A stretch of DNA of 64,000 bases, from NCBI RefSeq assembly GCF_024055725.1, contig NZ_JAMXMX010000019.1:1-64000 (forward strand), written 5' to 3'. This DNA is from Actinoallomurus spadix. Lineage in GTDB: Bacteria; Actinomycetota; Actinomycetes; Streptosporangiales; Streptosporangiaceae. Position 1 is the stretch's first letter. The number at the start of each line of letters is the position of its first letter. Position numbers and translations under genes: made by a program. Below the pieces are notes generated by a model that was not told the origin of the DNA, did no database searches, and saw only the letters and a list, made by a program, of their open reading frames with translations. This document shows positions 9,320 to 51,644 of the stretch, piece after piece.

Positions 9320-10054
9320 TCAGTCGTACCTGCGGCCGGTGCGCGAGGAGAGACGGCCCGCGAGATTTCGCGGGATCAGCTTGCCGAGGCCGACCAGGGC
9401 CTTGTACTGCACGCCGGGCACGCTGACGGTGACGCCCTTCCGGAAGTCGCGTAGCGCGTCCGCGACGACCCGGTCGGCGTCCAGCCAGAACGGCTTAGGG
9501 ATGCCCGAGACGTTCATCTCCGCCCGGTCGTGGAACTCGGTGCGCACGAAACCGGGGCACAGCGCCATGACGTGGACGCCCGGGACGTCCGCGGCCACGC
9601 CCTGGCTGAACCCCACCACCCACGCCTTCGACGCTCCGTACGTGCCGCGTGAGAAGAACGCCGCCACGGAGGCGACGTTGATGACACCGCCGCGCCCGCG
9701 TTCCCGCATGCCGGGCAGGGCCGCGTGCGTCAGCCGCAGCACCGCCTCGCAGTGCACCCGCAGCATCGCCAGTTCGTCCTCGAGAGGGACCTGCAGGAAA
9801 CGCCCCTTTTGCCCGAACCCGGCGTTGTTGACGACGAGGTCGGCGTGGCGGGCGGCCTCCTCGCCCTTGGCGAGACCGTCGTCCGTGGCCAGGTCGGCCA
9901 CGACGACCTCGGCGTTGCCGCAGTCCTCGGCCGCGCGGGCCAGCCGCTCCGCGTCACGGGCGAGCAGGATCAGGCGGAAGCCGTCCGCGGCGAGCCGCCG
10001 GGCGAACGCCGCGCCGATTCCCGCGGTGGCGCCGGTGATGAGGGCAGTGGGCAT
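9320..10054 (-). CDS. Short-chain dehydrogenase/reductase
   Basis: A 244-residue classical SDR. The Rossmann motif TGATAGIG (7-14), the NNAG motif and the catalytic Ser with YxxxK (YGASK) are all present, followed by CPGFVRTEF, typical of the DltE/YqjQ-like branch. NAD(P) is the expected cofactor; the substrate is unknown. GATAAC lies eight bases before the ATG at 10054 and a weak GAGG lies in between, so the start may be leaderless. It is separated from the upstream secreted-protein gene by a hairpin at 10152-10183. Confidence 0.85.
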   Translation of the reverse strand: MPTALITGATAGIGAAFARRLAADGFRLILLARDAERLARAAEDCGNAEVVVADLATDDGLAKGEEAARHADLVVNNAGFGQKGRFLQVPLEDELAMLRVHCEAVLRLTHAALPGMRERGRGGVINVASVAAFFSRGTYGASKAWVVGFSQGVAADVPGVHVMALCPGFVRTEFHDRAEMNVSGIPKPFWLDADRVVADALRDFRKGVTVSVPGVQYKALVGLGKLIPRNLAGRLSSRTGRRYD

Positions 10055-36734: not shown

Positions 36735-38456
36735 TCAGCGGAACCGGGCGTAGCCGGTGAGTCCCAGCAGGAGGAGCGCCGTCGGCGCCAGCACGGTCAA
36801 CGCCGTGAGAAGGACGCCGCGGCCCAGCCGATACCCGAGGGGTACGAGCCGTTCGGGCCGTCCCGCGGCGCGCCACGGAACGCGTCGTTCCGTCGTGCCG
36901 GCCCGGTCGTCCGTCTCCCGGCCCGGGGACTCCGCCGGGTCTCGCCCCGGCCCGTCGAGCGGCAGGCCGGCGACCCAGCCGAACAGGCCGGCGAGCGCGG
37001 CCGACGGAGTGTCGAGGCCGGAGGCGAGGTACCGCACGTGCCCCGCGGTGCGCTCGAGCGTACGGATCGTGTTGCCGAGACCGACGCCCTCCAGCCAGCC
37101 GCGCACGTCCTCATCGACGCCCCGGCCGACCGACGTCCTGCGCAGGACGTCGGCCTTGGTGACGACCACGGCGATACGCCGGTGCCGGCCCTGGTCGTCG
37201 CGGGAGCGCAGATCGGCCAGGAGCCGCTGCAGCGTGTCGGCGGGATCCTCCTCCGAGGTCGCCGTCTCCTCCACGAGCAGTCGTTCCTCCCGGGACAGCG
37301 CGTGGCGCAGTTCCGGCAGGGCGAACGGGTCGATGACGAACAGCAGCGCCTCGCCGTGGTCGAGGTAGCGCAACCGCTCGACCCGGGTCGCGCCGGTGTG
37401 CAGCTCCCCGGCCGGGTCGAACAGGTAGAGGATCCGGTGACCCGCGGGCAGGGTCACGTCCAGCATCGTGGCGGCGGGCAGTTCGGGACCGGTCTTGGCG
37501 AGGCGCCCGCCGGCGTCGAGCTCGGCCAGCGCGTCCGCGTACGCACGGGCGTCCCGGGCCTCGACGAACTCCGCCCGCCCACCGGACGCGGCCGCGCCGG
37601 TGCGCAAGGCCCGTACGGCCAGGAACATCAGCGTGGTCTTGCCGGCCGCGGGCCCGCCGACGAACGGCAGTGGCTCGACCCGCGCCCGGCCGATCCGCGC
37701 GGGCAGCGGGCGTCCGCAGTGCGGGCAGTACGCGCTGAGCCGGAACCGGCCGAGCAGGATCGTCGTGGGCAAGCGGGCACCGCAGCGGCAGACGTGCCGG
37801 AACGCGCCCAGCCGGTTGGGCACCAGGCGGAGGTGCCGCGCGTCGCAGTTGGGGCAGGCGTACGCGGGCAGTGCCAGCCGCTCGTAGCAGCCCGGATGCG
37901 GGCAGGCCAGCAGGATCCTGCGGTAGGCCGTCCAGAGCCGTTCGACGGTCCCGAGCATCAGGACGCAGACGGACCAGGCGACCAGGCCGGCACCGGCCAC
38001 CGCCACGGTCACCACGGCGAAGGCCAGGGCGGCGACGGTCAGCGGCAGCGCGGCCAGCAGGATCCCGGCGCACAGCGCCAGCCAGATCGGGAACAGGGCG
38101 AGCCCCTGCGGGAGGCGGAGCAGCCGCGCCGTCAGCGTGGTGACGGTCCGGCGCGCCTCCGCCAGGCACCAGGGGATCGTGCGGAGCGTCAGCGTCCGGG
38201 CGTCCCGCCAGACCTGGTCGAGGAGGTACTGCGGGTAGGCCGGGTCGGGCGCGTCGACGGCCGGGCGTGGCACGCTGGACGGCCCGTCCAGCCCGGCGGC
38301 CGTCAGGGTCCGCCACGCGACGACGAAGAACCGGCCGATTCCGGCGCCCGTGGCCACGATCAGGGCGACGGGCACGGCGAACGGGACGACGAACACGAAC
38401 TCGACCCAGACCAGGCCGACCCAGAGGAAGAACAGGAGGGCGTAGACGACGGGCAC
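36735..38456 (-). CDS. Membrane-anchored zinc-ribbon GTPase (double-GTPase system, DO-GTPase2 type)
   Basis: A 573-residue protein. Hydrophobic segments occur at about 3-45 and 118-168, with one C-terminal helix at about 548-568. Zinc-ribbon cysteine pairs follow (Cys185/190/201/204, 223/225 and 244/247). The TRAFAC GTPase domain has G1 GGPAAGKTT (267-275), G3 DPAGE (347-351) and G4 TKAD (433-436). I match it to the DO-GTPase2 family described from actinobacterial conflict-system operons; that naming is from memory. The GTG start is 4 bp after the GAP1 stop, and it is the last gene of the six-gene operon. It probably signals from the membrane. Confidence 0.75.
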   Translation of the reverse strand: MPVVYALLFFLWVGLVWVEFVFVVPFAVPVALIVATGAGIGRFFVVAWRTLTAAGLDGPSSVPRPAVDAPDPAYPQYLLDQVWRDARTLTLRTIPWCLAEARRTVTTLTARLLRLPQGLALFPIWLALCAGILLAALPLTVAALAFAVVTVAVAGAGLVAWSVCVLMLGTVERLWTAYRRILLACPHPGCYERLALPAYACPNCDARHLRLVPNRLGAFRHVCRCGARLPTTILLGRFRLSAYCPHCGRPLPARIGRARVEPLPFVGGPAAGKTTLMFLAVRALRTGAAASGGRAEFVEARDARAYADALAELDAGGRLAKTGPELPAATMLDVTLPAGHRILYLFDPAGELHTGATRVERLRYLDHGEALLFVIDPFALPELRHALSREERLLVEETATSEEDPADTLQRLLADLRSRDDQGRHRRIAVVVTKADVLRRTSVGRGVDEDVRGWLEGVGLGNTIRTLERTAGHVRYLASGLDTPSAALAGLFGWVAGLPLDGPGRDPAESPGRETDDRAGTTERRVPWRAAGRPERLVPLGYRLGRGVLLTALTVLAPTALLLLGLTGYARFR

Positions 38457-38460
38457 CGCG

Positions 38461-40940
38461 TCACGCCCCCCGGCGGGCGCGCCGCCACGCCGCGGCCAGC
38501 CGCGGGTCGCGGTCGGTGAGCGCCGACTCGACCTGCCGCCGGGCGAACCTTCCCAGCCCGTCCGCCCACGCGTCGAGCGCCGCGACGGTCACGCCGGCCT
38601 CCGCGAGACGGGCCCCGACCTCGGCCAGGTCCACGCGGCCGCGCCGGTCCAGGCCGGCGGCCAGCCACGGTCCCAGCAGGCCGTCGCGTACGCCGTCCGG
38701 CGCCGCGGCGAGCACGCGGGCCCGCGCCGCGGGCGAGCGGCCGGCGAAGACCCGGGCGACACCGGCCAGCGCGCGTTCGTGCAGCGGCTCTCCCCGCCGC
38801 AGCGTGGCGAGGAACCGGGCCACGTCCTCCTCGGAACCGGCCCGCAGCGCCCGTTCGAAGGTCAGGACCGTACGGGCGGCGCCGGCCAGCGTGGGCAGCC
38901 GGTCGTGGATCAGCCGCGCGAGCCGCAGGCCCTCCGCCGCGTCCAGCGGCACACCGTCGAACACCCTGCGCGGCAGGGCGCGCAGGACGGCGAACCGCCG
39001 CATCACCGGGCCCAGCCGCTCGACCAGCCATCGGCACTCCGGCACCGTGGGCGCCTCGGCCCACAGCGCGCCGAGCAGGTCCTCGATGTCGGGCAGGCCG
39101 TGGGGTTCGAGCTCGACCAGCGCGGCGGTGGCCGTGAGGCGGTCGGCGCGCGCGGACAGCACCAGGCCCCCGGTGCGCGGGGCGAGCGTCCAGTCCTGAT
39201 CACCGAGCGCGGCACACGCCTCGGGCGTCAGCATCGCCCGCCGGACCGCCGGGGGGCTCGCCTCCAGCCCGGACACCAGCCCATGGACCAGGGCCTTCCG
39301 CCAGAGCGGCGGAGTCGCCTCGACCGCCGCGGCCACGTCACCGTCGCCCCGCCGCGCGCAGGCGGCCGCCGCGGCGGCCACGCACTCGGCGTCGACCGCG
39401 CCGCCCACCCGGACCGCCAGCTCGACGAGCCCGGCGAGCGTCCGCAGGTCCGGCGCCTCGGTCATCGCCGCACGGAAGTCCTCCGGCAGCCCGTCGCGCA
39501 GCCGTATCCGGGGCAGCCTCGGCCGTACGTCCGGGTCGGTCAGGGCGAGGCGCACGCAGCGCTCGGCGGCCTCCGGGATGGCGTCCGCCAGTGCCGACGC
39601 CAGGTCGAAGCCGACGGCGGACAGGGTGGGCCGCAACGACGGCCAGACCCAGCCGGGGACCCCGCGGGCGCGGATCAGCCTGGCGCAGACCGACTGCTCC
39701 CCTGGGGAGACGGACGTGTCCCCCCGGCACAGCGCGAGCAGCGCCGCCGCGCCGTCGAGCGCGGAGCCCCCGCCGCCCGGCCGGGACGGCGGGCGTCCCG
39801 TGCCGCGTCCTCCGGCGCGGCGACGCCGCCGGCCGGCGGCAGGTGCGGGGGACCGGGGTGCCGCGCGGCCGCGGTCTCGGGTGCGGGAACGCCGCCGGCC
39901 GCCACCTGGTCCGGGGGACCGGGATTTCGTGCCGCCGCGGTCCCGGGCGCGGAGACGCCACCGTCCGGCGGCCGGCCCGGGGACCGGGAACTTCGTGCCG
40001 CCGTGTCCTCCGGCGCGGGGACCTCGCCGCCCGCCGGCCGGCCAGGGCCGCCCGGGTCCCGCACGGGGGCCGGCGTCTCCGAGATCAGTTCACCGACGGC
40101 GTCGATGCCGTCCAGGTCGCCGGTCCGCCAGCAGTCCGTGATCACCCGCGCGAACCGGCCCGGCCGCGCGCCGTTCGGGGAGAAGGGCTCGTCGAGGCGG
40201 AAACCGCCTTCCGGGCAGGCGGACGGGACCGTGCCGACGATGACGTGCGGAGCCGTCTCCAGGTCGGCGGCGTAGGTCGTGAACGACAGGTCGGCCGCGA
40301 GCTCGGCGGGCAGCGAGTACGACACCGCGGCGATCCACCGGGCTACGGCCTCGGTGTCCTCGGCGACGAGGACCACCCGGCCGTGCCCGGCGTCCACCAC
40401 CGTGGCCACGGCGTCGAGGATCGCGGCGAGCCGGTCGTGCGCGCGGTCGCCGCCGAGCCGATCGAGGAGCGAGTCCGGGTCGAACGCCGTGCCGGGTGCC
40501 AGGACGGCCGGCGCCGCGTCCTCCGGCGCCGGGCCGTCCGAGCCGGGAGAGTCGCCCAGAGGAGGATCCTGCAGGGGGGAGTCCCACAGAGGGGAATCCC
40601 AGAACTCGATGGGCCGCAGGCCCTCCATCTCCTCCGGCGTGGCCACGACCGCCTGTCCGAGGAAGTTGCCGTACCGGCCCGAGTAGTCGCGGCCGGTGTA
40701 ACGGCAGTGGGCCAGCACGGTGTACCCGTCCGCGCGACCGTAGGTCAGCGCGGTCGGGAAGCCCACCAGCTCGTCGGGGCCGGGCGCGGACGGGGCCCCC
40801 GGTGGAGGCCGGTACGCCATGTAGGGGGTCACCGCGCCGACGACGCCGGACGGCGTGCCCGGCGTCATGCCGACGAACTGGAAGCCCGACCGGCCCGTCG
40901 GGCCGCGCTCGGCAGAGGTGTAGGTCAGCCGCCAGATCAT
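38461..40940 (-). CDS. GTPase-associated protein 1 (GAP1), apparent -1 frameshift
   Basis: The N-terminal frame starts at the ATG at 40940, overlapping the upstream GTPase stop (ATGA). It begins WRLTYTSAERGPTGRSGFQFVG and contains YTGRDYSGRYGNFLGQAVV, matching the GAP1-N2 domain, then enters a linker of four ~22-residue repeats. In this frame it ends at 39675. The remaining 435 codons, a helical GAP1-M/C-like region, continue in the -1 frame from a run of five G (39771-39767): GGSALDGAAALLALCRGD reads straight into the downstream frame. Joining there gives 826 residues, a normal GAP1 size. The break may be a real mutation, programmed slippage or a sequencing error. Confidence 0.72.
39764..40031 (-). 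repeat. Four imperfect ~66-bp repeats in the GAP1 linker
   Basis: On the minus strand the linker encodes four copies of a 21-23-residue unit of the form GGVxAPExAAARxPGPPxxxxA, beginning near 40031, 39962, 39896 and 39830. The frame break lies at the end of the fourth copy. Such repeats favour slippage and misassembly. Confidence 0.75.
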
Positions 40941-42094
40941 CCGCGGGCCTCGTCGAGCATCCCGAACCGGTACAGCAGCCACAGCAGCGGGTCTTCGACG
41001 CGGTACGGGCGGATGCCGCCCGTACCGACCGCGCCGTCGCGGGGGACGCCGCCGAGGGCGGACACCCCGAACAGGCCGTACTCGGCGTACTCGTGCCCGA
41101 GGTAGCGGTCGAGCTCGCCGGCCTGCCAGTCGTGCAGCAGCGCGCGTACCTGCTCGTGCACGGCCTCCCGGTCGTCCAGGTCGAGGACGTCGGACCGCTC
41201 GGGGTGACGCCGCAGCGCTCCGTCGAGCGGCAACGCGTCGATCTTGGTGAGGGCCACGGCGGCGGGGACCGGCAGCCGCCTGCCGTGCGGGACGTCCCGG
41301 CCCGCGCGCAGCAGCTCGGTGACCCGGGCGATGACGTTGACCGGGTCACCGTCCGGATCGCCGTTCCCGGTCTTCAGCTCGACGGGGTCGACGAGGAAGA
41401 TGATGGCGTCGGCCGCCGCGAGGTAGCGCAGATGCAGGTCGGTGACGTCACGGCTGCGCAGGTCCTCGCCCGCCGTGTCGAACAGCACCAGCGTCAGGGA
41501 CATGTCCCGCTGCCGCAGGCGGCGGCGCCGGGTCCGGGTGAGGAGGTACACCAGCGGGTCGCGTGGCGTCGTCACGGCGCTGGCGGTCGCGGGCAGCAGC
41601 CGCCGCTCCCCGAACAGCGGCCGGTGGAAGTCGCGCTTGTACCGCTCGATCGTGCGGTCGTCGCACGCCACGAGCGAGGTGCCGAGCTCCGCGCCGATCC
41701 GGTGCGACAGCTCGTGCAGCAGCACCGCGATGTAGGTGCTCTTGCCGGAGTTCTTCGCGCCGACCAGGGCGACGATCTTCCCGGGCGTCTCGCAGTACGC
41801 CGCGGGCAGCGGGTTGTGGCACTCCGGGCACGCGCGGCGTGCCGTGGTCTGCCCGCATTCGGGGCAGACGGCACGGCGGGCCGGAGCCCGGCCGATCCGC
41901 AGCCGCGCCGGCGGCTCCGGCGGGCCGAAGACGGGAGGCAGCGACGCGGCAGCCGCGGACCCGGTGTAGGCGGCCAGCCGCTCGTCGAGCCGCGGCGTGC
42001 AGCCGGGACCGCGTCCGGGACTGCCCGCACACCGGAACGCGATCCGCTCGCGCTCCACCGTCGCGAAACAGTAGGGGCAGGTGATCGACGGCAT
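40937..42094 (-). CDS. Soluble zinc-ribbon GTPase (double-GTPase system, DO-GTPase1 type)
   Basis: A 384-residue protein without membrane segments. Zinc-ribbon pairs lie at Cys6/Cys9, 22/32, 77/80 and 89/92. The GTPase core has G1 GAKNSGKST (112-120), G3 DTAGED (206-211) and G4 TKID (283-286), a TRAFAC-type arrangement. It presumably switches between GTP states under control of GAP1, which is encoded next with an ATGA overlap. The ATG at 42094 shares one base with the FN3 gene stop (TGATG), which identifies the start. Homology to DO-GTPase1 is my assignment. Confidence 0.75.
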   Translation of the reverse strand: MPSITCPYCFATVERERIAFRCAGSPGRGPGCTPRLDERLAAYTGSAAAASLPPVFGPPEPPARLRIGRAPARRAVCPECGQTTARRACPECHNPLPAAYCETPGKIVALVGAKNSGKSTYIAVLLHELSHRIGAELGTSLVACDDRTIERYKRDFHRPLFGERRLLPATASAVTTPRDPLVYLLTRTRRRRLRQRDMSLTLVLFDTAGEDLRSRDVTDLHLRYLAAADAIIFLVDPVELKTGNGDPDGDPVNVIARVTELLRAGRDVPHGRRLPVPAAVALTKIDALPLDGALRRHPERSDVLDLDDREAVHEQVRALLHDWQAGELDRYLGHEYAEYGLFGVSALGGVPRDGAVGTGGIRPYRVEDPLLWLLYRFGMLDEARG

Positions 42095-44628
42095 CAGCCC
42101 ACTTTCAGGTGGCGGACCGGAGGGTCGCGCAGCTCGATTGTGTCGTCTTCGGCGAAGCAGCGCACCCAGAACGGCCGGGGCAGGCGCGGCAGCGCGACCT
42201 CCAGGCGCGCGGGCACCTCCACGTCGTCCCACGTCATCACGGTCCGGCCGTCGCCGGGCCGCTGCGGCATGGGACCCGGGCGGGTGACGAGGACGAGCCG
42301 CCGCAGGCGTACGGGCACGGCGGCGGACAGGGTGACGGTGAGCGGGCCGCGCAGGCGGGGCCGCCGCACCTCGTAGCCGACGGTGGTGCGGCCCGGCACG
42401 ACGGTGGTCACGGGGGAGCCGGTGACCCGCCGTCCCTGCGCCGTCCCCGCCGCGGCGACCTCGATCTTGACCGTCTCGTCCGGGGGAGCCGGGAGACGGA
42501 CGCCGCCGTGAGCGTCGTAGCCCGCCCGGCCGACCGGCAGGCGGCGCTCGGCACCGGTGGCCGGCCGCCAGGCCACCTCGACCTCGGTGACGTCCGGCGG
42601 CCAGTCGAAGCCCAGGACGATCACCTCGCCGCGCCGCTCGGCGATCAGCTCGCGCGGCGGCGTCAGGCTCACGTGCTCGCGGTGGGCGCCGATCGTGGCG
42701 AGGTCCCCGGCGACGGACACGGCCAGCAGCACCCCGGGACCGGTCCGCACCGTGAGGCCGCCCGGGGCGGGCGCCGCGCGCAGGAGCCGGCCGATGCGCC
42801 GGACGTCCTCCAGCGGCAGCGTCGTGCCCGGCGGCCAGGGCGGCGGCGCGTCCATCGCGACGAGCTCCACCTCGCCCTCGGCGGGCGGGTCGAAGGTGAC
42901 GACGAGCCGCCCGGCGGGGTCGGGCTCGACGCCGAGCCCGGTCACGGGAGCGGGGCGGGCGGCGGGCGTCGCCGCGGCGTGCACGCCGGCCGTGACGGTC
43001 TCCCGGCCGTCGGCGCCGAGGTACGCGGCGGCGATGCGGTCGTGGTTCGTCGTCCCGTTGCGGCCGGTCTCGTCGCGGAAGCCGGTGCGCGCAGCCGGGA
43101 CGGGCGTGCCGTCCCGGGTCACGACGACGCGGACCGCCTCGGGCGGGCAGGACCAGCGGCCCGCGACCACGCGGTCCGCGGCGGTCACGACGACGTCCGC
43201 CGGCTCCGGCCGCACGAGGACCGGCCCGGCGACCGCCGGCGCCGACGCCGCCGAGCCGCGTACGGCGAACACCGCGTAGTAGACGGGGGCGTTCAGCGGG
43301 GGCGCGCCGTCACGGGCGTGGGCGGCCTCGGCCGCGAGCCGCTCCCCGTCACCGGGATGCCGAGGAACCCGCCCCAGGCAGCGCAGCACGACGTACCCGA
43401 TCTCACCGACCCGGGACGGCGACGGCGACCAGGACAACGCGACCGCGGCGCCGTCGACGGCCGCCTCGAGCCGCCCGGGTGCCTGCGGCGGCAGCCCGGC
43501 CTGCAACTCGGCCGCGCCCGGCAGGTCGCCGACCAGCCGGAGCGCGTCGGCAAGCCGCAGCCATGCCCCGTCAGGGTCGGTCAGCAGGAGGGACGCCGCC
43601 TCCTGGCGCAGCGCCGTCGCCGCCGCCACCCGGCGCCGCGCCTCGTCCGCGAGGACCCGCGCGTCACCGGCCGGCTCGCCCGCCTGGCCCGCCACCTCGG
43701 CCAGCTCGGCGGCCGCCTGCACCTCGCCGGCGTCGATGAGGTCGCGCAGCCGCGCGGTCAGGCCGCCCTCCGGGGCGGTCTCCCGGCGGATCGCGAAGAC
43801 CAGGCGGCGCGCGTCGTCGCGGTCCACGCCGAGGTCGTCGACGGCGTACCGCAGCAGCGCGCCCTCCGAGGCCCGCTGCTGGTGCCGCTCGCGCAGCCGC
43901 GCCACCACGTCGTAGCGGACGAGCTCCGCCAGCCGGGTGCCGACCTGCCGCACCGCGACCAGGACCGTGTCGGCGTTCGTGCGGTTGCCGTCGTGCGGCC
44001 GCCGGCTCCACTGCTCGCCGACCCGCTGCGCCGCGGGCCGCAGGTCGGGGATCTCGCCGAGGACATGACCGGCGTGCGGCTCGCCGGTCAGGAACTCGCG
44101 CAGGTGCCGCGCGCCGAGGGCGTCCAGCGCGTCGCGGGCCCGGGCGTACCCGGCGTAGGGCGGCGCGGCCGGCAGCGGGTCCGGGTCCCGGACCTCGATG
44201 CCGGTGGCGCGGGCGACGTCCGCGGCCTCACCACCGATCTCCCGCAGGTCGGCGGGCGACAGCATGCGCAGGTCCCCGGCGGCGTCGAGCAGCCGGTCCC
44301 GCAGTTCGGCGCGGCGGCGCGCGGCACGGTCGCCCGCCGCGGCGATCTCGGCGCGCAGCGGCGCCGGGTCGCCCGCCGCCGCCCGCTCGAACAGCGGCGC
44401 GAGCCTCAGGTGCTCGCCCTCCAGTCGGTCGATCAGCCGCCGGAACCGCAGCCGGCCCCGCGCCTTGCGCCAGCAGGTGCGCACCTGCTTGACGTGCTCG
44501 GCCAGCTCGCGGGGGACGAGGGGGTCCGGCAGGGCGTAGCGCAGGCGCAGGTCGTCGGGCGGCTGGTCCCCGGCCGCCCTGGCGGGCTCCAGCACCTCCC
44601 GGACATAGCGCCGTTCGTCAAAGACCAC
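42094..44628 (-). CDS. Large helical and fibronectin type III-like protein of the GTPase operon
   Basis: An 844-residue protein with no signal peptide or membrane helix. Residues 1-370 are predicted helical and rich in Arg/Asp/Glu/Ala. From about 385 beta-sandwich units of FN3 type follow: VALSWSPSPSRVGEIGYVVLRC, PVYYAVFAVRGSAAS, a WSCPPEAVRVVVTRDG unit and FDWPPDVTEVEVAWRPATG. The last 200 residues are more beta-rich. FN3 domains outside secreted proteins are unusual in bacteria and here likely act as a scaffold or client-recognition part. The GTG start overlaps the Hsp70 stop by one base (TAGTG). Confidence 0.65.
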   Translation of the reverse strand: MVFDERRYVREVLEPARAAGDQPPDDLRLRYALPDPLVPRELAEHVKQVRTCWRKARGRLRFRRLIDRLEGEHLRLAPLFERAAAGDPAPLRAEIAAAGDRAARRRAELRDRLLDAAGDLRMLSPADLREIGGEAADVARATGIEVRDPDPLPAAPPYAGYARARDALDALGARHLREFLTGEPHAGHVLGEIPDLRPAAQRVGEQWSRRPHDGNRTNADTVLVAVRQVGTRLAELVRYDVVARLRERHQQRASEGALLRYAVDDLGVDRDDARRLVFAIRRETAPEGGLTARLRDLIDAGEVQAAAELAEVAGQAGEPAGDARVLADEARRRVAAATALRQEAASLLLTDPDGAWLRLADALRLVGDLPGAAELQAGLPPQAPGRLEAAVDGAAVALSWSPSPSRVGEIGYVVLRCLGRVPRHPGDGERLAAEAAHARDGAPPLNAPVYYAVFAVRGSAASAPAVAGPVLVRPEPADVVVTAADRVVAGRWSCPPEAVRVVVTRDGTPVPAARTGFRDETGRNGTTNHDRIAAAYLGADGRETVTAGVHAAATPAARPAPVTGLGVEPDPAGRLVVTFDPPAEGEVELVAMDAPPPWPPGTTLPLEDVRRIGRLLRAAPAPGGLTVRTGPGVLLAVSVAGDLATIGAHREHVSLTPPRELIAERRGEVIVLGFDWPPDVTEVEVAWRPATGAERRLPVGRAGYDAHGGVRLPAPPDETVKIEVAAAGTAQGRRVTGSPVTTVVPGRTTVGYEVRRPRLRGPLTVTLSAAVPVRLRRLVLVTRPGPMPQRPGDGRTVMTWDDVEVPARLEVALPRLPRPFWVRCFAEDDTIELRDPPVRHLKVG

Positions 44629-46247
44629 TAGTCGACGCGTATGTGGGCCAGGTCGGTGCGCGACTGGTGCACCTCTTCCTCGGACATCCCGCCGACGCGC
44701 ACCTCGAGCTTCAGCTCCTCGGCGGTCTCCTTCTCCACGGCCGTGACGTGCAGCAGCCCGGAGGTGTCGAGGGCGAAGGTGACCTCGATGGGCCAGCCCG
44801 CGGGTTTGCCGGGCGGGATCTTCAGCTCGCCGTCGGCGATGGGCGTGTTGTGGGCGACCTCGGTCGACTCCGCGCTGCCCGCCTGCTCGACCACGATGAT
44901 CTTCACGATCGTCTGGTCCTCATCGACGGTGCCGAACTCGCGGGTCTTGCCGCGGGGGAGCGCGTCGTTGGCGTGCACGAGGTGGACGACGTGCTCCTGC
45001 TCGGTGTCCGGGTCCAGCGCGATGACCCCGAAGGCGCGGGAGGCCACGGTCGTGATCTGCCGGGCGGCCATCCGCTCCTGGTCGCTCTCGGACAGGCCGG
45101 CCCGGGTCGCCAGGTCCAGGGCCTTGTCCGTCTCGCCCTTGGCCAGGAGCTGCCGGTAGGTCTCCTCGAAGGCGTACAGCGCGGCGCCCTTGGCGACCGC
45201 CAGGTCCGGGTCCTGCAGCCGGGGGCTCAGGGCCAGCTCGCCGGCCAGCCGCCGCTGCACGGCGGGCATCTTCGTGGAGCCGCCGACGAGCACGAGGTCG
45301 TCGTAGTCGGCCACGCCCTTCCCGGCCGCGGTGGCGAGCGTCCGGCCGGTGATCTCGATGGTGCGGTCGAGCAGGTCCTTGGTGATCTCCTCGAACGTGT
45401 CCCTGGTCAGCTCGACCGTCGCCACCCGGCCCTCGTGCATGACGCGGACGACATGCCGGGTGCGCAGCGACAGGGCCTTCTTGGCCTCCTCCGCGTCGTG
45501 CCGCAGCTGCTGCTCGGTGTGCTTGTCGTCGAGGGGATCACCGACGTCGGGGTGCTCCTCGGCGAACCGCTCGGCGAGGTACTCGACGACCCGGGCGTCC
45601 CAGTCGGCGCCGCCGAGCTCGTGGTCGCCGTCGGTGCAGACGACGGAGATGTCGCCGCCGCGCAGGGTGATGACCGTGGTGTCGAAGGTACCGCCGCCGA
45701 GGTCGTACACGAGGATCGTGCGGTCGGCGGACTCGTCGCCGTCGTCCCCGCCGCCGTCCGCCGTCGCGGGGTTGAGCACGCCGTACGTGATGGCGGCGGC
45801 GATCGGCTCGGAAATGATGTCGATGACGTTCAGCCCGGCGATGTGGCCCGCCTTGCGGGTGGCGTCCCGCTCGGCGGCCCCGAAGTAGGCCGGCACCGTG
45901 ATCACGACGTCGCGGACCTCCTCGCCCGTCGTCGCCGTGGCGTCGGCCACCAGCTTGCGCAGGACGAACGCGGAGATCTCCTCGGGGGAGTAGTCCCGCT
46001 CGTGCAGCTCACGCGGCACCTCGTGGCCCATGTCCCGCTTGATCAGGCTGACCACCAGGTCGGGGAACAGTACCGCGGTGTCCTTCGCCGGCGCGCCGAC
46101 GACGACGTTGTCGGCGGACTCGAAGTAGACGACCGACGGCGTCGTGTCGGTGCCCTCCATGTTGCGCAGCACGGCCGGCCGGCCGACGTCGTCGACGCGC
46201 GCGATGCACGAGTGCGTCGTGCCCAGGTCGATACCGTAGACAGCCAT
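44628..46247 (-). CDS. Hsp70-family chaperone lacking the C-terminal lid
   Basis: A 539-residue DnaK-like ATPase. The nucleotide-binding domain has GIDLGTTHSC at residue 5, DLGGGTFDTTV near 190 and LVGGSTKMPAVQ near 315. The substrate-binding beta domain (TTVASRAFGVIA, VHANDALPRGKTREF, ELKIPPGKPAGWPIEVTFALDTSGLL) is present, but the protein stops about 70-100 residues short of a full DnaK and lacks most of the helical lid. No J-protein is in the operon. The upstream GrpE-like gene ends one base before this start. This is an operon-dedicated Hsp70, not the housekeeping DnaK. Confidence 0.88.
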   Translation of the reverse strand: MAVYGIDLGTTHSCIARVDDVGRPAVLRNMEGTDTTPSVVYFESADNVVVGAPAKDTAVLFPDLVVSLIKRDMGHEVPRELHERDYSPEEISAFVLRKLVADATATTGEEVRDVVITVPAYFGAAERDATRKAGHIAGLNVIDIISEPIAAAITYGVLNPATADGGGDDGDESADRTILVYDLGGGTFDTTVITLRGGDISVVCTDGDHELGGADWDARVVEYLAERFAEEHPDVGDPLDDKHTEQQLRHDAEEAKKALSLRTRHVVRVMHEGRVATVELTRDTFEEITKDLLDRTIEITGRTLATAAGKGVADYDDLVLVGGSTKMPAVQRRLAGELALSPRLQDPDLAVAKGAALYAFEETYRQLLAKGETDKALDLATRAGLSESDQERMAARQITTVASRAFGVIALDPDTEQEHVVHLVHANDALPRGKTREFGTVDEDQTIVKIIVVEQAGSAESTEVAHNTPIADGELKIPPGKPAGWPIEVTFALDTSGLLHVTAVEKETAEELKLEVRVGGMSEEEVHQSRTDLAHIRVD

Positions 46248-46248
46248 C

Positions 46249-46974
46249 TCATTCTCCTCCGACGGGTTCGGCCGCCACCCGGGCGATGATCACCTCGGCG
46301 CGTCGTACGATCCGGTCACCACGGACGAAGCCGGCCCGCTGTACCCGGGCCACCGTGCCGTCGAGGTCCGCGTCCGCCACGTCCTCGGTGCCCGAGGGGC
46401 GGTGCCGCGCCGGGTCGAACGGCTCACCGGTCTCGACGGGCATCCGCTCGACGCCGGTGCGGGCGAGGATCTCGGCCAGCTCGTCGGCGATCGCCGCGAG
46501 CAGCACCGGTGTGTGGGCGGGGTCGGCCGTCTCCCGCTCGGCCTCCCGCCGCACCAGGTCGTAGAGGCGGTACAACGCCGCGCGCACCGGCTCGAACGTG
46601 GCCTGCAGCTCGCCGTGGCGCAGCCGCTGGTTGTCCTCGTGCAGCCGGTCGATGACGCGCTCCCGGTGCGCCGCCCGCTCGTGCTCCCTGCCGACGGCCT
46701 CGGTGAGGCCGGTCAGCAGCGACCGGATCTCCTCGAGTGACACCGTGCCGCGCCGTCCGGGCCCGTCCGCAGCCGGCTCGCCGGCCGAGGACGCCCGCGT
46801 CGCCGGCGCGCGCCCGGTGCGCCGGGAGCGGGGCGCGCGGGAGGGCCGGGGGGCGGAGGACGGTGCGCCGGCCTCCGCGGCGGGAGGCTCATGCGGCAGC
46901 CCGGCGGCCCGGCCGGGATCGCCGGGCGGCGGGGAGCCGCTCCCGCCGCTGGGGGGCTCGGGGTCAACGGGCAT
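46249..46974 (-). CDS. GrpE-like nucleotide exchange factor
   Basis: A 241-residue protein. Residues 1-77 are a Pro/Ala/Arg-rich disordered segment; 80-120 form a coiled coil; a four-helix region follows, ending in the GrpE beta domain with PFDPARHRPSG and GTVARVQRAGFVRGDRIVRRAEVIIARV, which match GrpE's conserved GYxxxDRVLRPAxVxV. GrpE helps Hsp70 release ADP. It is the first gene of the six-gene operon and probably works with the lid-less Hsp70 downstream. ATG at 46974 is 9 bp after a -10 hexamer, so the mRNA is nearly leaderless. Confidence 0.82.
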   Translation of the reverse strand: MPVDPEPPSGGSGSPPPGDPGRAAGLPHEPPAAEAGAPSSAPRPSRAPRSRRTGRAPATRASSAGEPAADGPGRRGTVSLEEIRSLLTGLTEAVGREHERAAHRERVIDRLHEDNQRLRHGELQATFEPVRAALYRLYDLVRREAERETADPAHTPVLLAAIADELAEILARTGVERMPVETGEPFDPARHRPSGTEDVADADLDGTVARVQRAGFVRGDRIVRRAEVIIARVAAEPVGGE

Positions 46975-47246: not shown

Positions 47247-47846
47247 CTAGTGGATGACCGCGCCGGCCTGGCGCTGGCGCTCGGCCATCACCGACAGGAC
47301 GTGCTCGACGAGGGCGATCAGGACCTGCTTGCCGGACTCGCGCCGGCGTACGTCGCACAGGATGATCGGGACCCTGGGGTCCAGGTCGAGCGCGGCGCGG
47401 ATCTCCTCGGTGTCGTACTGGATCGCGCCGTCGAAGCAGTTGACGCCCACGATGAACGGCAGCCGCCGCCGCTCGAAGTAGTCGATGGAGGGAAAGGAGT
47501 CGGCGAGGACGACGGCGCCGAGGGCGCCGAGGGCCAGCTCGTCCCACATGAACCAGAACCGGTCCTGGCCGGGTGTGCCGAACAGGTACAGGACGAGACC
47601 GTCGCGGATGGTGATGCGGCCGAAGTCCATCGCCACGGTCGTCGTGGTCTTGCGCTCCACGCCGGAGGTGTCGTCGATGCCGACGCTGCGGTCCGTCAGC
47701 TGTTCCTCGGTCCGCAGCGGCTTGATCTCGCTGACGGCGCCCACCAGGGTCGTCTTTCCCACGCCGAATCCGCCCGCGACGAGGATCTTCACGGCGAGCG
47801 GCATGGCGGCAGCGCCCCGTGAGGGGTCAGAGCGCCTGGAGTCCAT
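47247..47846 (-). CDS. cvnD: Conservon GTPase (CvnD)
   Basis: A 199-residue small GTPase of the bacterial conservon type. G1 is GGFGVGKTT (25-33), G3 is FGTPGQDR and the G4 region is NCFDGA. CvnD proteins signal downstream of CvnA-C in control of development and secondary metabolism in Streptomyces. The ATG at 47846 overlaps the DUF742 gene by 20 nt, which is usual for this family; ATG at 47804 is an alternative. It is the last conservon gene. Confidence 0.92.
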   Translation of the reverse strand: MDSRRSDPSRGAAAMPLAVKILVAGGFGVGKTTLVGAVSEIKPLRTEEQLTDRSVGIDDTSGVERKTTTTVAMDFGRITIRDGLVLYLFGTPGQDRFWFMWDELALGALGAVVLADSFPSIDYFERRRLPFIVGVNCFDGAIQYDTEEIRAALDLDPRVPIILCDVRRRESGKQVLIALVEHVLSVMAERQRQAGAVIH

Positions 47847-48189
47847 TGAGCACTTCCTTCAAAACCCGTTCGTTGGGAAGACGGTTCTCTGTTTCAGGAC
47901 GGCGTACGACGATCAGCCCGAGGTCGAGCAGATCCCCCAGCAGGACCCGGACGACGCCCAGGGGGAGTTTCAGCTTCGCCGAGATCTCCGCCACCGAGAG
48001 CGGGCGCACGCACAGGTCAAGGATGGCGACGTGCTCCGGGCCGGCGTTCGGCGGAGCGAACGTCGACGTCGCCGCCGTCGCGATGATCGCGATCAGGTCG
48101 AAGCCCTCTCGCGAGGCCCTGGTCCGGCCTCGCGTGAGCGCGTACGGCCGGACCACCGGCCCGGCCTCGTCGTCGAGCCATTCGCTCAT
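47827..48189 (-). CDS. cvnC: Conservon DUF742 protein (CvnC)
   Basis: A 120-residue DUF742 protein with the typical VVRPYALTRGRT at the N-terminus and a winged-helix-like C-terminal half: RPLSVAEISAKLKLPLGVVRVLLGDLLDLGLIVV. It is thought to connect the roadblock protein and GTPase. It starts 84 bp after cvnB and overlaps cvnD. Confidence 0.92.
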   Translation of the reverse strand: MSEWLDDEAGPVVRPYALTRGRTRASREGFDLIAIIATAATSTFAPPNAGPEHVAILDLCVRPLSVAEISAKLKLPLGVVRVLLGDLLDLGLIVVRRPETENRLPNERVLKEVLNGLQAL

Positions 48190-48273
48190 TCAGCCGTCCC
48201 GCCTCGTGGGCCGTCGTGGAGAGGGCGACATCGCCGGGTGCCCGTTGTGTTGTCCTCGCACGATCATCCGGCC

Positions 48274-48678
48274 TCACGATTCCACGGCTGAGCGAGGCAG
48301 GGTCGACATGTGCTGGCCGACGCGCTTGACCAGCATCGCCATCTCGTAGGCGATCATACCGACGTCCGCGTCCGATCCCGCCAGCACCGCGAGGCAGGCG
48401 CCCGAGCCCGCCGCCGTGACGAACAGGAACGCGTGGTCCATCTCGACGATCGTCTGGCGTACGCCGCCTCCGCCGAACTGGCGTCCGGCGCTGCGCGCGA
48501 GGCTCTGGAAGCTCGCCGCGACCGCCGACAGGTGCTCGGCGTCCTCCCGGGTCAGGCCGGCGGACGAGCCGACCAGCAGGCCGTCACTGGAGAGCACCAC
48601 CGCCTGCCGCACCTGGGCGACACGGGTGACGAGGCTGTCCAGCAGCCAGTTGAGTTCCCCCGCAGAACCCGCTGACAT
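48274..48678 (-). CDS. cvnB: Conservon roadblock/LC7 protein (CvnB)
   Basis: A 134-residue roadblock/LC7 domain protein. LNWLLDSLVTRVAQVRQAVVLSSDGLLVGSS and the C-terminal VGMIAYEMAMLVKRVGQHM are the conserved blocks. Roadblock proteins act as GTPase regulators, matching its location upstream of cvnD. ATG at 48678 overlaps the cvnA stop by one base (TGATG), which fixes the start. Confidence 0.92.
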   Translation of the reverse strand: MSAGSAGELNWLLDSLVTRVAQVRQAVVLSSDGLLVGSSAGLTREDAEHLSAVAASFQSLARSAGRQFGGGGVRQTIVEMDHAFLFVTAAGSGACLAVLAGSDADVGMIAYEMAMLVKRVGQHMSTLPRSAVES

Positions 48679-51644
48679 CAGATGTCCTCCTCTTCGTGAT
48701 GGGTGGCGGTCTGCTCGGCGTCCGAGCGGCCGCGCAGCCATCCCTTCTGAATCGAGCTCAGCATCGTGCGGAGCTCCTCCGGCGAACGCTCATTGCTGGT
48801 CGCATTGTCCACAGGCTCGGCCTCTTCGCGAAGCTGGGGGGCCAGGTTCGCCTGCCGGACCCGGCGCGGCAGTGCCGGCCTGGTCCCGGAGGCCGTGGAA
48901 CCGGTGCTCGTGAAACCGGCCGACGCGGTGGTGTCGGGAACGGCGGTGTCCGCGGGCTCCTCGGACGGTTCGAACAGCGAACGGCCCGGGGACGGCGCTC
49001 CGCCGTGTCGGCCCGGGAGCGGCGGCCGCTCCTCGGACGTCCCGCCGCGGCGGGACGGCAGCGGCGGCCGGTTCTCGCCGGTCTCGCCGCCGGACGCCGG
49101 CCGGTCGCTCCGCGCGCCGCCCGATCCGGCACCGTCCTCGTACGACGGCGGACTCGGGGAGTACCCGCTCGTGCCGGACGAGAAGCCGGTCGTGCTCCCC
49201 GCCTTGTAGTCGTCCGTCTCCTGCGGCCCCTCGCCGTACGCGGTGGGGACGGCGTCGTAACCGCCGAGGCCCGCGGAGTACGCGCCCGTCCCGTAGCCGG
49301 TGGCCGGGAACGATCCGGTGTCGGAGCCCGGGACCGGGAACGATCCCGTGCCGGCTCCCGTGTCCGCGCCGCCGGAGTCCTGCGACCGGGCGTCGGAGCC
49401 GCGGGGGGCGGTGCCGTACGGCTTCGCGTCGTACGGGCCGGTGGTGTAGGCGGCCTGCGCACCGGTGTCACCGCGACGCTGGGGAAGCGGCGGCCGGTCG
49501 CCCCGGATCGCCTGGATGGGCCCGGTGATCGGACCCCCGATCGGGCCGGTGTCCGTGGGGTTCGGGCCGGTCGGCGCGCCGATGGCGCCGATCGGGACCA
49601 GCGCCTCCTCGCCGCGCCGTGTCGTCGCGGGCGGGCCGGCCTCCAGCTCGGGCCGTTCGTCTCCGCGGGAGACGATCGCGTCGGGCAGCAGGACGATCGC
49701 GGTCGTACCGCCGTACGGCGAGGTGCGGAGCGTGACCTGTACGCGGTGCCGCTGGGCCAGCCGGCCGACGACGAACAGGCCGAGCTGGGCGCTGTTGGAC
49801 AGGTCGAAGTCCGGCGGGTTCGTCAGCCGCTCGTTGGCGCGCTCGATGGTCGCCTGGTCCATGCTCAGGCCGCGGTCCTCCACCTCGAACGCGAAGCCGT
49901 GCGCCACGAGCTGGCCGGTGACCTGGACGGTGGTGTCGGGCGGGGAGAACAGCGTCGCGTTCTCGATGAGCTCGGCGAGCAGGTGGATGAGGTCGGCGAC
50001 CGCGGGGCCGGCGACGGCCACGCGAGGCATGGCGGACACGGTGACCCGCGCGTAGTCCTCCACCTCGGCGGCGGCGGCGCGGGCGACGTCGACGACCGGG
50101 ACCGGGTTGCGCCAGCCACGGCCGGGCGTCTGCCCGGACAGGATGATGAGGCCTTCCGCGTGGCGGCGCATGCGGGTCGCGAGGTGGTCGAGGCGGAACA
50201 GGTCGTCCAGCTCGTCCGGCTCGGTGACCCGGCGTTCCATGGAGTCCAGCAGGCTGAGCTGGCGGTGCAGCAGCGCCTGGTTGCGGCGCGCCAGGTTGAG
50301 GAAGACCTCGCTGATGCTGCGCCGCAGTCCGGCCTCCTCGACCGCGCCCTGGATCGCGGTGCGCCGTGCGGCGTTGAACGCCTGGCCGACCTGGTCGATC
50401 TCCTGGGTGCCGAAGGACAGCGGCGGGGCCTCGGCGGCGACGTCGACGTCCTCACCGCGGCGCAGCCGCCGGATGACGCTCGGCAGCCGCTCGTTCGCCA
50501 GGTCGAGGGCGGCGCGGCGCAGGCCGGTCAGGTCGCGGACGACCGAGCGGCCCACCCACAGCGACAGGGCGAGCGAGGCGATGACCGCGATCAGACCGAG
50601 CGCGCCGGCCAGCGCGACGTTCCGGATGATGCCGTCGGAGACGGGCTTGGCACGCTGGGCGGCGCTCGCCGTCGACGACAGCTCCAGGCCGCGCAGTCGC
50701 GTCAGGATGGAGCTGACCTTGATCTTCCACTTGACGTCCATGCCGGCCAGCGGCTTCGGGGCGGCCTTGCCGGCCATGCCCGCGCGGGGCTGCTCCGGCA
50801 TGTTGTCGGTGAACTGGTCCTCCAGCGCCTGCAGACCGGTGAACTCGGGCGTCGAGATGATCCGCTGGTAGTAGGCGCGGTCGGCGGGCCGGAGGTCCGG
50901 GACGATCTGGTCGTAGAGGCTGCGCTGGGTGCCGACGAGCTTGGTGAACTGCACGTGCTCGGAGAACGTCAGGCGGCCGGTGGCCAGCGCGCCGGCCAGC
51001 AGCGCGTCCTCCTGGGAGAGGACCTCGCGCGCCCGGGCCAGGGCGACCTCGTTCTTGGCGTCCTTGGTGACGTCCGGGTCGCTCAGGGTCGACAGCGACG
51101 ACTGCAGGGCGATGACGTCGGAGATCGTGTCGGTGTAGTCGTTGAACGCCTGCATGCGGCTTTCCTTGCCGCTGTCGATCGACTTGCGCTTGTTCTGCAG
51201 GTTGTCGAGGTGCACGATGACCTCGTGTGTCCACTGCCGTGCCTCGGCGGTGGCGTCCTTCTGCGCGCCCGCGTCGGTGGCCAGCCGGCGGAACAGGTCG
51301 GCCTGCCGGTCGGTGACGAGACGGCCGGACTCCATCGACGCCCGGTCGCCGGCCGACTTGCTGGCCAGGAAGACCACGGACAACCGGCGCTCCTGCTCCA
51401 GCGCGCTGCCCAGACCCCCGGAGGGGTAGTTCAGATGATCCTGGATCGTGTTGACATGTCGCAGGTTCAGGCCGTCGCCCAAGGTGATGCTCGCTGCGAA
51501 CACCCACAAGGTGCTGAGTGACACCAACGGGACGATGAGCAGCAGAACTATCTTGAAGCGGACTGACCCGAACACGCGGCCGACCCGGGACCGGGACGAC
51601 CGCCGACTGACATCTGATCCCACTCGTCGGTCCTTAGATTGCAC
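48678..51644 (-). CDS. cvnA: Conservon sensor histidine kinase-like protein (CvnA), NIT domain
   Basis: A 988-residue membrane protein. TM1 lies near 33-52 and TM2 near 345-367; between them is a nitrate/nitrite-sensing (NIT) type all-helical sensor. HAMP follows, then a region with RRNQALLHRQLSLLDSMERR replacing a classical H-box, and a HATPase_c domain with LIENATLFSPPDT (N-box) and AQLGLFVVGRLAQRHRVQVTLR. The last 270 residues are Gly/Ser/Pro-rich with four RPxLPxR motifs. It senses outside signals and signals through CvnB-D. It is divergent from the polyamine operon across a 275-bp region. Confidence 0.9.
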   Translation of the reverse strand: MQSKDRRVGSDVSRRSSRSRVGRVFGSVRFKIVLLLIVPLVSLSTLWVFAASITLGDGLNLRHVNTIQDHLNYPSGGLGSALEQERRLSVVFLASKSAGDRASMESGRLVTDRQADLFRRLATDAGAQKDATAEARQWTHEVIVHLDNLQNKRKSIDSGKESRMQAFNDYTDTISDVIALQSSLSTLSDPDVTKDAKNEVALARAREVLSQEDALLAGALATGRLTFSEHVQFTKLVGTQRSLYDQIVPDLRPADRAYYQRIISTPEFTGLQALEDQFTDNMPEQPRAGMAGKAAPKPLAGMDVKWKIKVSSILTRLRGLELSSTASAAQRAKPVSDGIIRNVALAGALGLIAVIASLALSLWVGRSVVRDLTGLRRAALDLANERLPSVIRRLRRGEDVDVAAEAPPLSFGTQEIDQVGQAFNAARRTAIQGAVEEAGLRRSISEVFLNLARRNQALLHRQLSLLDSMERRVTEPDELDDLFRLDHLATRMRRHAEGLIILSGQTPGRGWRNPVPVVDVARAAAAEVEDYARVTVSAMPRVAVAGPAVADLIHLLAELIENATLFSPPDTTVQVTGQLVAHGFAFEVEDRGLSMDQATIERANERLTNPPDFDLSNSAQLGLFVVGRLAQRHRVQVTLRTSPYGGTTAIVLLPDAIVSRGDERPELEAGPPATTRRGEEALVPIGAIGAPTGPNPTDTGPIGGPITGPIQAIRGDRPPLPQRRGDTGAQAAYTTGPYDAKPYGTAPRGSDARSQDSGGADTGAGTGSFPVPGSDTGSFPATGYGTGAYSAGLGGYDAVPTAYGEGPQETDDYKAGSTTGFSSGTSGYSPSPPSYEDGAGSGGARSDRPASGGETGENRPPLPSRRGGTSEERPPLPGRHGGAPSPGRSLFEPSEEPADTAVPDTTASAGFTSTGSTASGTRPALPRRVRQANLAPQLREEAEPVDNATSNERSPEELRTMLSSIQKGWLRGRSDAEQTATHHEEEDI

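Follow-up and report, generated by a model that had tools for sequence, protein, structure and literature searches.

A vertically inherited GAP1-N2 DO-GTPase operon of actinomycetes with a lid-less Hsp70 that appears to lack the J-domain interface

The window analysed here (the whole stretch of 64,000 nucleotides at positions 1–64,000 of Actinoallomurus spadix contig NZ_JAMXMX010000019.1) contains a six-gene operon, a GAP1-N2 DO-GTPase module of the HSP70/GrpE type that is chromosomal and passed on vertically. One property of its Hsp70 and of the corresponding proteins in related loci is new as far as could be found in the literature searched: judging by their sequences, these proteins are without a lid, a hydrophobic linker or a J-domain interface but keep the ATPase residues. 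Hsp70s are regarded as unable to do without J-domain proteins, and a widespread operon whose Hsp70 has no J-contact surface but does have its ATPase would be a natural test of how an Hsp70 can be coupled to another partner, here two GTPases. The set of six proteins also gives the DO-GTPase/GAP1 systems a concrete experimental entry.

The operon lies on the minus strand at 36735–46974, in the order grpE, lid-less hsp70, FN3 protein, soluble DO-GTPase, GAP1 and membrane DO-GTPase, and the successive gene junctions measured on the sequence are +1, −1, −1, −4 and +4 nt. The identity of the parts is close to certain. The first gene (46249–46974) encodes a GrpE-like nucleotide exchange factor of 241 aa (Pfam PF01025, E 1.6e-12), the second (44628–46247) an Hsp70 of 539 aa (Pfam HSP70, 8e-101), and the third (42094–44628) an FN3 scaffold protein of 844 aa, identified by a fibronectin profile match, AlphaFold2 and Foldseek. 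The soluble DO-GTPase (40937–42094, 385 aa) and the membrane DO-GTPase (36735–38456, 573 aa) both match Pfam DO-GTPase2 (PF19993, 1.2e-9 and 6.9e-20, respectively), with further evidence from alignment and motifs for the former and from hydropathy and motifs for the latter; GAP1 (38461–40940) lies between them. These six parts and their tight coupling on a single strand had been proposed in an earlier note made from the sequence alone, and they are confirmed by the coordinates, by the Pfam, profile and structure matches, and by junctions of −4 to +4 nt. The one promoter that the note placed in front of the operon was not detectable – a sigma-70 scan found 0 where 0.2 were expected, in a type of scan that misses many actinomycete promoters. 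The genome that contains the window is 8.0 Mb in 71 contigs, and the genus mates of the strain include Actinoallomurus soli and A. purpureus. A conservon, another GTPase signalling operon, occupies 47247–51644 of the window on the same strand and encodes NIT-HATPase, Roadblock, DUF742 and ATP/GTP-binding proteins.

The nucleotide-binding motifs (P-loop, D(T/P)AGE and TKxD) are intact in both GTPases, and CxxC motifs identify their N-terminal zinc ribbons. The soluble protein has N-terminal Cys motifs, the P-loop GAKNSGKS, DTAGE and TKID. The membrane protein has Cys pairs, the P-loop GGPAAGKT, DPAGE and TKAD, and its hydrophobic segments at residues 1–48, 115–172 and 544–570 make up an N-terminal TM region and a C-terminal TM helix.

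The earlier reading of the fifth gene as GAP1 holds for its domains, but the gene is not one open frame in this assembly. The first frame (39675–40940, minus strand) encodes GAP1-N2 and GAP1-M (Pfam PF20013, 1.2e-35, and PF20014, 1e-23) and ends at a stop at 39675; the second (38461–39776, same strand) continues in the −1 frame with GAP1-C, a helical repeat as judged from the frames and the AlphaFold model of the A. soli orthologue. GAP1-C had no significant match in the PDB (best E 0.04). Pairwise alignment with A. soli places the break at a 7-nt gap at 39776, just downstream of a tandem array on the same strand (39802–40041, 3.6 copies of a 66-nt unit, Tandem Repeats Finder) that codes for the disordered linker of GAP1. 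In all relatives checked GAP1 is a single frame (in G002 as far as the contig reaches), and this assembly alone shows the split. Either the assembly is in error at this point or the gene has mutated recently, and GAP1 may be broken in this strain. Programmed frameshifting was rejected as a general feature of GAP1, as the genus mates have one frame and there is no slippery heptamer at the junction. The length of the linker is highly variable: in one genus member (L026, 8440–9520) it has ca. 360 Pro/Gly/Thr-rich residues. A repetitive His/Asp/Arg/Pro-rich insertion is found inside the GAP1-N2 domain of another locus (L032, ca. 9870–10050), near the N-terminus of GAP1.

The Hsp70 of the window consists of an ATPase domain and SBD-beta, and its profile alignment to the PDB covers the NBD and SBD-beta only. 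All of the Hsp70s encoded in these loci (system Hsp70s) terminate after SBD-beta when aligned with the canonical DnaKs of the window's genome, with 20–39 residues past the SBD-beta marker, compared to 137–165 in lidded DnaKs. The lid-less Hsp70 of the earlier note is thus borne out by both the profile alignment and the residue counts. The linker region is also altered, with 34–80 residues compared to 26 in DnaK (8–54 extra), and the VLLLD motif is absent.

Residues were compared with E. coli numbering carried over through conserved motifs, in a sample of 44 system Hsp70s drawn from outside the Firmicutes members of the theme. The ATPase residues D8, K70, E171, D194, T199 and D201 are retained in all 44, while R167, D148 and D393 are retained in none. 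N147 has become G and L397 has become R, K or H in every one of the 44, and position 167 is exactly D in 25. Among 21 control Hsp70s from the same genomes, D148 is found in 20, R167 in 19 and D393 in 18. In DnaK, R167, D393 and L391 are contacts for the J-domain and for allostery (PMC7289447, PMC8215388) – D35 from the HPD motif of DnaJ touches R167, and H33 touches L391 in the linker (PMC8215388). R167 also forms a pair with D393, and in simulation the R167D change makes the domains disengage in the manner of J-domain binding (PMC7289447).

That the J interface simply went with the lid was considered and rejected. Three of the 21 controls are lid-less Hsp70s that contain SBD-beta (L147, L148 and L150), and they retain R167 and D393; because these controls keep the interface residues, the loss is a mark of the subfamily and not an effect of losing the lid. 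Since the system Hsp70 is without lid, allosteric linker and J-domain interface, the client-sensing chaperone put forward in the earlier note is unlikely, at least in its ordinary form, and the sequence features suggest that the protein works as a dedicated switch and not as a general chaperone. As a separate observation, L147 (7464–9020) and L148 (7193–8725) each have a distinct lid-less Hsp70 with a GrpE-like gene after it, with R167 and D393 kept and without GAP1, apparently another little-described Hsp70/GrpE pair.

Two canonical dnaK-grpE-dnaJ clusters are found elsewhere in the window's genome, so the Hsp70 and GrpE of the operon are a third and dedicated pair that has no J-protein. The GrpE, the third of the genome (the other two adjoin the canonical dnaK genes), has a disordered Pro/Ala-rich N-terminus and the GrpE C-terminal region at residues 160–231. 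Four J-domain proteins are encoded in the genome, none near the operon, and the operon itself encodes no J-domain. The GrpE-signature loop of the system Hsp70s has 13 residues, 6 shorter than the 19–20 of DnaK, which makes it uncertain that the operon's GrpE acts as a classical exchange factor. The short loop is common to other lid-less Hsp70s.

In its AlphaFold model (pLDDT 88.6), the FN3 protein is all helical at residues 1–380 and has tandem FN3-type beta sandwiches at residues 385–844. The model matches FN3 arrays in the PDB (Foldseek, E 3e-12), and the profile of the protein's alignment matches fibronectin (E 5e-9). Pfam fn3 was found in 12 of 38 family members, with no match in the window's own protein, and Pfam DnaJ in none of the 38 (the window's protein and 37 others from actinomycetes). 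A J-domain hidden in the N-terminus was rejected on the lack of a Pfam DnaJ match, an hhalign probability of 0.5%, and the presence of HPD in only 4 of 55 proteins, at no conserved site. The helical N-terminal domain does bear a DLxxRY motif. Of 54 FN3 proteins, 31 combine the motif with an Hsp70 in the locus and 14 lack both, while 8 have only the Hsp70 and 1 only the motif, an association (Fisher p = 1e-6) that is confounded by phylogeny. The 8 loci with Hsp70 and without the motif mostly have diverged Hsp70s; the locus with the motif and no Hsp70 is L088. On this pattern, the helical N-terminus with its DLxxRY motif is the best candidate for the part of the FN3 protein that faces the Hsp70. 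A charge swap between D167 of the Hsp70 and DLxxRY was also considered, with D167 in 25 of 34 Hsp70s of motif loci and 0 of 10 others, but the motif and non-motif groups are two separate clades and the co-variation therefore proves nothing.

GAP1-N2 is present in 13 of 60 related genomes. All 15 loci of those 13 genomes have the order grpE-hsp70-FN3-GTPase-GAP1-GTPase, as far as the contigs reach. There are 30 complete six-gene loci in total, that of the window and 29 others, and because the same order recurs in those 29 the operon is more than a chance arrangement. Within the 60 related genomes the full-length FN3 profile matches only the 13 with GAP1-N2, and its matches fall within six-gene loci, save one truncated extra copy that begins grpE-hsp70-FN3. 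The Hsp70 subfamily (a profile score above 480 bits) is found in 13 of 13 GAP1-N2 genomes and 1 of 47 others (Fisher p = 3e-12); the sole match outside, in genome G056, has an adjacent GrpE gene on a short contig. Homologues routinely found apart would, according to the earlier note, have refuted its reading; the gene order is instead strongly conserved, and the FN3 protein and the Hsp70 subfamily are hardly ever encoded away from these loci. Distances between the components are correlated across the 30 loci, with Mantel r of 0.70–0.94, of which shared ancestry alone would give part. In L095 (10413–11150) and L104 (14095–14874), GrpE is encoded just after the operon on the opposite strand, so linkage has been retained despite rearrangement.

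Class-wide, GAP1-N2 was found in 53 of 395 genomes. The six-gene order is complete in 17 of the 55 loci read; in 23, an Hsp70 gene precedes FN3-GTPase-GAP1 on the same strand. The remaining loci have a chaperone-free FN3-GTPase-GAP1-GTPase arrangement (9 rows) or GAP1-GTPase fusions, or are more divergent. Five loci (L115, L118, L120, L121 and L123) have a single frame of ca. 980–1100 aa that fuses GAP1-N2 to a membrane-type DO-GTPase. The chaperone-free loci bear on whether the Hsp70/GrpE pair is a dedicated folding or membrane-assembly chaperone that matures the two GTPases and GAP1, with no signalling. Hsp70 and GrpE are co-operonic and co-inherited with the GTPases and GAP1, and SBD-beta is kept, so peptide binding by the system Hsp70 is possible; however, the system Hsp70 has lost the lid, the linker and the J interface that folding Hsp70s have, and because related loci keep the other four genes without an Hsp70, the GTPases are not always dependent on it. 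We consider such a folding role improbable.

Within the genus, the operon is universal (8 of 8 genomes) and always lies between a conservon and a zinc-type dehydrogenase gene. The conservon (a cvn GTPase operon) immediately precedes the operon on the same strand and is kept there across the genus, and one GTPase of the module is in the membrane, which would fit an envelope or development signalling module tied to the conservon and to the state of the cell wall. In a tblastn survey, the other genera of the family had no conservon beside the operon, so the adjacency may be plain synteny, and we regard this explanation as very unlikely.

The genus-wide site also bears on the anti-phage or conflict role proposed by Kaur et al., with the FN3 repeats as sensors of an invader, the GTPase-GAP1 pair as the setter of a threshold, and a membrane effector that stops or kills the cell. 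Such a role is consistent with the patchy class-wide occurrence, with effectors described in kin systems (e.g. SLATT fused to GAP1, PMC7159879), and with dN/dS of about 0.2–0.5 in GAP1, FN3 and GrpE, compared to 0.0–0.16 in neighbouring genes. However, dN/dS is below 1 in all six genes (0.08–0.54), no effector domain was recognised in these genes or their nearest neighbours, and PADLOC gave a single match at noise level. No defence neighbours, defence island or mobile carriage were found around the operon, which sits at a fixed site in every member of the genus. The soluble GTPase had no match in phages and two distant matches only, on Rhodococcus megaplasmids; the best phage matches of the Hsp70 are ca. 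35% identical. The conflict or surveillance function suggested in the earlier note thus finds no specific backing at this locus, and we consider it unlikely, if less so than the two explanations above.

In the reading that we prefer, at slightly less than an even chance, Hsp70 and GrpE form an insulated clamp that is independent of J-domains and by which the GTPase-GAP1 pair is gated at the membrane. The Hsp70 would be insulated from the DnaJ proteins of the cell and would clamp a few partners within the complex, timed by ATP. Its hydrolysis might be intrinsic, an option in keeping with the simulation in which R167D of DnaK mimics J-domain action (PMC7289447), or it might be triggered by the helical N-terminus of the FN3 protein in place of a J-domain; we infer the latter possibility only from co-occurrence, which is confounded by phylogeny. 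GrpE would reset the clamp. The FN3 array would carry the complex and perhaps sense a ligand or the state of the envelope, and the state of the clamp would set the engagement of the soluble DO-GTPase and GAP1 with the membrane DO-GTPase, the likeliest output. We tentatively suggest, with somewhat less than even confidence, that these proteins are a separate type of bacterial Hsp70, distinct from DnaK, HscA and HscC, which never uses a J-domain, stands apart from the chaperone network, is driven or gated by the FN3 protein, and times a GTPase switch.

DO-GTPase/GAP1-N2 systems were described by Kaur, Burroughs, Iyer and Aravind in 2020 (eLife 9:e52696, PMC7159879). That paper sets out a second theme, ca. 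14% of GAP1-N2 loci, with HSP70, GrpE and an FN3 protein "typically fused to DnaJ" or TPR. Because this HSP70/GrpE theme has been described, the window operon is a member of an already known kind, and the kinship with NTPase-centred systems known from comparative genomics, as claimed in the earlier note, is supported. The mechanism had also been called untested there, and no functional tests of GAP1-N2 DO-GTPase systems were found in the open-licence literature searched. The operon and the theme have in common GAP1-N2 with GAP1-M; HSP70, GrpE and an FN3-repeat protein in one operon; and two zinc-ribbon DO-GTPases, of which one has TM helices at both termini. They differ in that the DnaJ fusion, usual in the theme but not defining, is absent from all 38 actinomycete FN3 proteins, and in that the variable effector, not present in every described locus, was not recognised in the operon or next to it. 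The TPR alternative was neither found nor excluded in the window's FN3 family. Loss of the J interface, linker and lid of the Hsp70 is not described in the available portion of the paper.

The system Hsp70 resembles the DnaK-type Hsp70s, which work with DnaJ and GrpE, in its ATPase domain motifs, SBD-beta and GrpE partner. Unlike DnaK, it has no lid, no VLLLD, extra interdomain residues, replacements at R167, D148, D393 and L397, a shorter GrpE-signature loop, and no J-domain partner encoded nearby. It resembles HscA and HscC as a specialised bacterial Hsp70 without the GrpE-signature loop of the DnaK type. HscA and HscC, however, have their own J-proteins and no GrpE (PMC8215388), whereas the lid-less system Hsp70 has no J-protein and is paired with a GrpE.
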